5,615 nucleotides of DNA, from NCBI GenBank assembly GCA_018715825.1, contig DVKU01000170.1, forward strand, positions 1 to 5,615. Direction: 5' to 3'. Source of the DNA: Candidatus Avacholeplasma faecigallinarum (GTDB lineage: Bacteria; Bacillota_I; Bacilli_A; Acholeplasmatales; Anaeroplasmataceae). The position numbers and the translations under genes are program-made. This document shows, piece after piece, positions 1-106 of the stretch; the first letter of the stretch is position 1, and each line of letters opens with the position of its first letter. The notes under the pieces were generated by a model, which saw only the letters and a program-made list of their open reading frames with translations, did not search any database and had not been told where the DNA came from.

Positions 1-33
1 TAGCCTGGTTTATCTTAAATGACAAGACTTAAG
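1..33 (+). promoter_or_regulatory. 3' end of a probable yybP-ykoY manganese riboswitch aptamer (truncated by window start)
   Basis: Bases 21-30 (GACAAGACTT) resemble the conserved 3' end of yybP-ykoY aptamers, which as I recall it reads close to GCAAGACCTTT and forms the 3' strand of closing helix P1. A small preceding hairpin (9-12 with 16-19) could be the last aptamer stem. The 5' part of the aptamer, with its GGGGAGTAG-like metal-binding loop, would lie outside the window, so the call cannot be closed here. Support comes mainly from context: the next gene is mntP, a classic target of this Mn2+-sensing RNA, and an expression platform with mutually exclusive hairpins follows. The alternative is that this is just the tail of an upstream gene's untranslated region. 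Confidence 0.42.
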
Positions 34-61
34 TATAGCACTAAGCTATACTTTTTGTCTT
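24..61 (+). promoter_or_regulatory. Hairpin in the mntP leader (anti-antiterminator, or an upstream gene's terminator)
   Basis: An upper stem of eight perfect pairs (AAGTATAG 31-38 with CTATACTT 46-53) encloses a 7-base loop. Below a small internal loop, a lower stem pairs AAGAC 24-28 with GTCTT 57-61. The lower stem consumes the same bases proposed as the 3' strand of the aptamer closing helix, as expected if ligand binding disrupts this hairpin. The T-run after the upper stem is short and broken by G, so it is a weaker terminator than the next hairpin. It could still be a simple terminator of an upstream gene. Confidence 0.6.
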
Positions 62-77
62 TTGTGGTATGCTTAGT
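40..77 (+). promoter_or_regulatory. Candidate antiterminator pairing upstream of mntP
   Basis: ACTAAGC (40-46) plus ATACT (48-52) pair with GGTAT (66-70) plus GCTTAGT (71-77). This gives 12 pairs, 11 Watson-Crick and one G-U, with T47 bulged and a 13-base loop. The helix uses the 3' arm of the preceding hairpin and the 5' arm of the following terminator, so it excludes both. That geometry is typical of a transcription-attenuation switch. The pairing is visible in the sequence; its regulatory role is inferred. Confidence 0.5.
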
Positions 78-93
78 TGCATATCTTTTTTTT
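66..93 (+). terminator. Intrinsic terminator/attenuator just upstream of mntP
   Basis: GGTATGC (66-72) pairs with GCATATC (79-85), seven pairs with one G-U, around a six-base loop (TTAGTT). Eight consecutive T (86-93) follow immediately. The structure ends only about 20 bases before the mntP start, which is what one expects of a conditional terminator inside the leader rather than the end of an upstream gene. Its 5' arm can alternatively pair with bases 40-52. Confidence 0.65.
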
Positions 94-101
94 ATTATGA
101 T

Positions 102-106
102 GGAGG
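102..106 (+). promoter_or_regulatory. Ribosome-binding site of mntP
   Basis: A GGAGG core lies six bases before the ATG at 113. It is the strongest Shine-Dalgarno in the window and fixes the mntP start. It lies beyond the leader terminator's T-run, so control would act on transcription rather than by hiding this site. Confidence 0.8.

Follow-up and report, generated by a model that had tools for sequence, protein, structure and literature searches.

The leader of mntP in Candidatus Avacholeplasma faecigallinarum carries two hairpins in tandem, T1 and T2, and this raises the question of how a single upstream sensor could govern both of them and thereby a putative manganese efflux pump. The window (5,615 nucleotides) is an entire contig (C152) of a 1.28 Mb assembly that is 79% complete; therefore, the greater part of the sensor is missing and nothing 5' of base 1 is readable. 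The preliminary description had spoken of a complete switch in front of mntP, which overstated the content of the window because the sensor lies mostly off the contig. Considered together with its relatives, the leader is probably the 3' part of a manganese riboswitch. Its expression platform is predicted from folding calculations to operate as a strand relay. The features of the leader are listed in Table 1.

Table 1. Coordinates of the mntP gene and of its leader parts in the window.
Feature	Position	Strand	Basis
Aptamer 3' end, yybP-ykoY-like (putatively Mn2+)	1-37	+	Match to covariance model R1; the 5' 60 of 97 model positions are off the contig
P1 3' strand CUUAAG, common to the aptamer closing helix and T1	28-33	+	Letters identical in four relatives; blocking flips the calculated fold
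Hairpin T1, predicted anti-antiterminator, loop 40-44	24-61	+	-14.6 kcal/mol, z -6.1
AT 5' side (T1 loop and 3' arm, U47 bulged)	40-52	+	12 pairs with 66-77
AT 3' side (T2 5' arm and loop)	66-77	+	Pairing with 40-52; swap and permutation tests
Intrinsic terminator T2, stem 66-72/79-85, eight-U tract 86-93	66-93	+	Terminator scan and folding
Shine-Dalgarno-like GGAGG of mntP	102-106	+	Sequence
mntP, putative manganese efflux pump, 188 aa	113-679	+	PF02659 (Mntp), 136.5 bits

The sensor and its relatives

Four relatives of the genus (L004, L005, L006, and L023) harbored the same leader before a gene of the mntP family, and in these the whole aptamer was present, in the order CUUAAGGGAGUAG, then AUCAACAU(A/G)CUGG, then CCUGGUUUAUCUUAAUU(G/A)ACAAGACUUAAG. 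The conserved GGGAGUAG-type loop of the 5' side occurred in all four and is off the contig in the window; a search of the window's own assembly with up to three mismatches did not find this 5' part of the aptamer elsewhere. The CAACAUACU-type internal loop in P3 is likewise off the contig in the window, and L004 aligned there to positions 48-84 of the Rfam model RF00080, to which the CAACAU(A/G)CU motif was also aligned. The middle part of L004 scored 18.5 bits against this model (E 0.0017 in a 181-base search), with a cut-off of 45 bits, and a larger search of 12 loci gave no report at E 1. The Rfam scan with RF00080 gave no match in the window and none in its own genome, and among 55 genomes of the family 6 had a match. 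The cut-off was passed in only two of the five control genomes with a match, and the gathering score is a detection threshold and not a defining trait.

A covariance model, R1, was built from 11 aptamers of the genus and of records named Lachnospiraceae or Clostridia. Bases 1-37 of the window matched model positions 61-97 (32.6 bits, E 8.7e-6), the match being cut on the 5' side, and of P1 and P3 only the 3' strands lie in the window. In the alignment of the 11 aptamers, 96.7% of the cells in the four proposed helices were paired and 9 of 19 pairs were changed on both sides. None of 500 shuffles reached the pairing or the covariation score and 13 reached the number of both-sided pairs, while the number of further pair types was reached by 494; sliding the columns by 1 to 3 left at most 52% of the helix cells paired. 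The 5' strand of P1 in the four relatives reads CUUAAG, and P1 covaries there.

The R1 match places the 3' strand of the closing helix P1 at 28-33 (CUUAAG). The preliminary description had located this strand in the lower stem of T1 at 24-28, whereas it touches only base 28 of the lower stem, together with bases 31-33 of the upper stem. The leader in the window is likely to be a divergent Mn2+ riboswitch. By analogy with Lactococcus lactis, and given the type of aptamer and of gene, Mn2+ would be the ligand and its effect would be activating; likewise, P1 presumably forms in the window genome and T2 presumably terminates transcription in the cell. Furthermore, none of the 55 family genomes exceeded the RF00080 cut-off, while R1 matched many of these genomes, and RF00080 may underestimate the number of Mn2+ riboswitches in the family of the window.

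Two hairpins and a rival helix

None of 200 shuffles folded as well as T1, as the segment 62-93 that includes T2 (-8.7 kcal/mol, z -4.3), or as both together (24-93; -23.4 kcal/mol, z -5.7). T2 was also picked up by a terminator scan of the window. The proposed coexistence of the first hairpin with the terminator is borne out by the fold of 24-93. The rival helix AT joins 40-46 and 48-52 with 66-77 in exactly 12 pairs, the number claimed in the preliminary description, and an extension by 38-39/79-80 is possible (-11.2 to -14.3 kcal/mol). Because AT takes the loop and 3' arm of T1 as well as the 5' arm and loop of T2, it excludes both hairpins. By folding, the leader contains three mutually exclusive helices in series, which is the arrangement of an anti-antiterminator/antiterminator/terminator attenuator. 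The U tract after T1 contained only four U in eight positions at its best placement.

Similar T1 and T2 stems alone give some cross-pairing, so that the loops are the test of AT. Native AT comprised 14 pairs in the window, 15 in L004, 15 in L005, 14 in L006, and 15 in L023, although the paired loops differed (ACUAA/UUAGU, AUAGG/UUUAU, AUUGG/UUAAU, GAUA/UAUU, and UUAG/CUAA, respectively). When the five T1 sides were combined with the five T2 sides in all 120 permutations, the native matching had the lowest total (-75.2 kcal/mol; next -71.5, mean -54.4). In swaps of the T1 loop only, the window and L057, which is a copy of the L004 locus, each paired better with their own loop than with any of the 43 loops taken from other leaders; L058, L059, and L056 (copies of L006, L005, and L023) ranked at 0.01, 0.05, and 0.12, L037, L041, and L213 at 0.00, and L205 at 0.01. 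The median rank over all 63 testable leaders was 0.27, with 21 at 0.1 or lower and 26 showing no preference (0.5 or higher), and in some of the latter (e.g., L069) the loop takes no part in AT. The window and its four relatives thus show compensatory change of the antiterminator, in arms and loops alike; such changes had been named in the preliminary description as a check, and its view that the interlocking arms exceed chance was upheld by the permutation and loop tests.

Switching was calculated from partition functions for lengths 77, 85, and 93, with bases 1-23 held unpaired for the aptamer and 28-33 either free or blocked. With 28-33 free, T1 and T2 held together, and the probability of T2, P(T2), was 0.997 at length 85 and 0.999 at length 93. 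With 28-33 blocked, P(AT) was 0.998 at length 77, where the 3' arm of T2 is not yet made, 0.93 at length 85, and 0.75 at length 93; the best single fold at length 93 was a T1 remnant with T2 (-14.4 kcal/mol, compared to -14.3 for AT). Blocking 24-33 gave a P(AT) of 0.98 at length 85 and 0.90 at length 93. A closing strand at 24-28 was ruled out, since blocking these bases alone left T1 and T2 in place (P(AT) 0.04 at length 85). Among 36 six-base blocks placed in turn, only those starting at 27, 28, and 30-34 raised P(AT) above 0.5. The earlier idea of an OFF state with both hairpins and an ON state with AT, exchanged by strand competition, is therefore supported by calculation for the strand 28-33 and fails for the strand originally named.

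Similar calculations were made for the relatives. With 24-33 blocked and T2 complete, AT was the best fold in the window, L057, L058, and L059, while L056 formed AT as long as the T2 loop was out and returned to a T1 remnant with T2 once T2 was complete. Once T2 was complete, P(T2) under the strand block amounted to 0.02 in the window, 0.00 in L057, 0.00 in L058, 0.58 in L059, and 0.72 in L056, so that L059 and L056 would require a kinetic switch. In L057, L058, and L059, the 5' arm of T1 can also pair with the 3' arm of T2 outside AT to give a single long hairpin up to the U tract (-19.4 to -19.7 kcal/mol); this hairpin is shortened by blocking the P1 strand.

The predicted relay would consist of strands that compete in series, namely 28-33, then 40-52, then 66-77, and then the T2 3' arm at 79-85. 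Without Mn2+, P1 would be open and 28-33 would be kept in T1, which would hold 40-52; T2 would then form before the eight U and halt RNA polymerase at about base 93. In the presence of Mn2+, docking of the aptamer would keep 28-33 within P1 and leave T1 with approximately 6 pairs, so that 40-52 would capture 66-77 once transcribed, T2 would not form, and mntP would be read. T1 would thus serve as an anti-antiterminator in the window leader, and the equivalent hairpin in single-hairpin relatives is apparently the terminator itself.

Occurrence of the tandem platform

R1 matches were identified in 48 of 160 genomes of the order, in 59 of 392 genomes of the phylum sample, and in 151 of 299 genomes from the family to which G509 belongs, G509 having been reached through a Lachnospiraceae record. 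The 236 leaders examined are not all of these matches, as 7 weak ones of the phylum sample were left out and the best-scoring 88 places were used from the G509-family set with its 151 matching genomes. In 72 of the 236, T1 and a downstream T2 with a U tract were separated by at most 45 bases. This set comprises the 76 leaders with a T2 call minus 7 (T1 weaker than -6 kcal/mol in L036 and L211; a gap of more than 45 bases in L075, L140, L141, L144, and L236), which gives 69, plus L057, L058, and L059, for which a shorter T1 limit was applied; some T2 calls, e.g., in L097 and L280, may fall within coding sequence. AT reached -8 kcal/mol or better in 66 of the 72 tandem leaders, -10 in 65, and -12 in 56.

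In the 69 leaders, the own AT averaged -13.5 kcal/mol, compared to -9.4 kcal/mol for swapped T2 sides, and it was more than two standard deviations better than shuffled T2 sides in 55. Swaps of whole sides gave a median rank of 0.11 among unlike swaps, with the own AT the very best in 4, and these rank tests overstate independence because the leaders are related. At the stage of a half-made T2, and with a blocked P1 strand, the T2 5' arm was paired upstream with a probability above 0.5 in 67 of 72 leaders and in 559 of 864 chimeras; this measure counts any pairing of that arm from the T1 loop onward, spacer included, and was 0.83 in L058 even with the strand free. A strict two-state criterion with a half-made T2 gave no separation, as it picked 23 of 72 own leaders and 234 of 864 chimeras, and a strict equilibrium flip separated the two groups weakly (15 of 72 compared to 67 of 864). 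T1 was followed by at least six U in eight positions in 120 of 158 other T1-bearing leaders, but in only 21 of the 72 tandem leaders, a contrast that fits a change in the role of T1 from terminator to anti-antiterminator. Taken together, the predicted relay is well supported in the window clade and in some other leaders, but not for every tandem leader.

The preliminary description held that relatives in which mntP follows only one hairpin, with no compensatory changes, would speak against the switch. Eight genus loci with an aptamer had a single terminator-like hairpin by eye (L008, L009, L010, L013, L014, L019, L022, and L027), and none of their fetched copies fell in the tandem set; yet the two-hairpin relatives show compensation. 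The relay would therefore be one of two platforms in the genus and not the rule. Single-hairpin mntP leaders were also matched by SSRC10 (RF02617), a streptococcal "sRNA", below its cut-off of 56 bits (L008:1290-1395, 32.0 bits; L014:1364-1476, 27.4 bits; L027:1353-1458, 27.2 bits). SSRC10 of Streptococcus pyogenes is described as adjoining a putative calcium transporter gene and ending in an intrinsic terminator (PMC3675131), and it may correspond to a Mn2+ riboswitch leader cut short by termination. A further match, which is odd for the lineage, was that of STnc490 (RF01405) on the minus strand at L008:30-130 (45.1 bits; cut-off 56).

The window's own genome contained a second aptamer (L137; C201:4324-4426, minus strand) before a gene for a P-type cation ATPase (PF00122 and PF00690). 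Its platform differs in sequence and has the same order of arms as the window. Blocking its P1 strand at full T2 length changed the minimum fold from the hairpin with T2 to AT, and P(T2) fell from 0.63 to 0.19. R1-type aptamers with tandem hairpins were also found before ABC-transporter ATPases (PF00005) at L201:702-1397 and L213:669-1373, and by a crude motif count 6 ABC-ATPase genes followed the 72 tandem leaders and 1 followed the remaining 164. Another tandem-hairpin leader (L233:958-1701) preceded an MgtE-like protein with MgtE_N and CBS domains, which is unexpected for a signal of Mn2+ export only.

Other readings, known systems, and significance

T2 could alternatively be a duplicate-like back-up terminator, with Mn2+ acting on T1 only and the cross-pairing of T1 and T2 a functionless by-product of their similar stems. 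The stems are alike enough for this (GUAUAGC and GUAUGC), even swapped T2 sides retain the average pairing given above, chimeras often pass the switch criteria, and the c-di-GMP riboswitch Bc1 behaves in such a way, as its ligand is described as unfolding T1 and not T2 (PMC11218506). However, duplication predicts loops that are alike, whereas those of the window clade are complementary and change together, and the tract after the window T1, with its four U in eight positions, is weak for termination by T1 itself; a mere back-up role is thus unlikely. It is highly improbable that both hairpins are constitutive and form a fixed attenuator that lowers mntP expression beside a degenerate relic of an aptamer. 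The incomplete aptamer of the window and its lack of an Rfam match would agree with a relic, but four relatives with the same leader keep the whole aptamer, with helices backed by both-sided changes, and the strand that closes the aptamer lies at precisely the position whose blocking switches the fold.

The relay might also be real and answer to another ion or a different signal, or work in the opposite direction. R1-type aptamers do precede genes for P-type ATPases, Na/Ca exchangers, ABC ATPases, and an MgtE-like protein, although the GGGAGUAG and CAACAU(A/G)CU motifs stand before a putative Mn2+ exporter. As for direction, sequestration of the P1 strand would lead to antitermination, as is described for L. 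lactis (PMC11087558). Such a change of ligand or sign appears quite improbable, and a relay that is switched on by Mn2+ remains the preferred reading.

Serial strand competition (1:2, 2:3, and 3:4) is also the principle of the trp operon attenuator of enteric bacteria, which, unlike the predicted relay, is driven by the position of the ribosome and not by an aptamer. In the yybP-ykoY riboswitch of L. lactis, the switch helix P1.1 is described as contributing its 3' strand as the 5' arm of the terminator hairpin that follows, and Mn2+ stabilizes the switch helix and brings about antitermination (PMC11087558). The window leader appears to keep this strand sharing as its first step; however, the L. 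lactis leader is described with one terminator, whereas T1 of the window would not be the final terminator and would control T2 via a separate antiterminator. Bc1 of Bacillus thuringiensis resembles the window in having one aptamer and two tandem intrinsic terminators, but there T2 stays and masks the response, and the available part of the report names no relay (PMC11218506). The rplJL leader of Bacillus subtilis shares the serial arrangement of anti-antiterminator, antiterminator, and terminator; its regulator, in contrast, is the ribosomal protein complex L10(L12)4, whose binding promotes termination, and it is described without a metal aptamer in the text available (PMC4538822).

No description of a Mn2+ relay platform was found in the open-access PMC literature, and the expression platform of the window is likely a new variant on a divergent Mn2+ riboswitch. 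With moderate confidence, it may be assigned to a recurrent, undescribed class of Mn2+ expression platform, a domino relay, in which an ancestral terminator has turned into an anti-antiterminator and one aptamer strand disarms both hairpins via an AT that joins both loops, and which recurs with different sequences in Lachnospiraceae and before the P-type cation ATPase of the same genome. Two terminators behind one aptamer can fail when the second masks the first, as is described for Bc1 (PMC11218506); a relay, if true, would be a natural solution in which one ligand event disarms both hairpins, and a domino relay would allow Mn2+ to be sensed later and more tightly than by a switch with a single terminator. 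It further suggests that a terminator can change its role without a change in the sensor, and it offers a design for tight ON switches. Furthermore, R1 adds putative Mn2+ riboswitches that are missed by the Rfam cut-off in the small-genome relatives of this bacterium.
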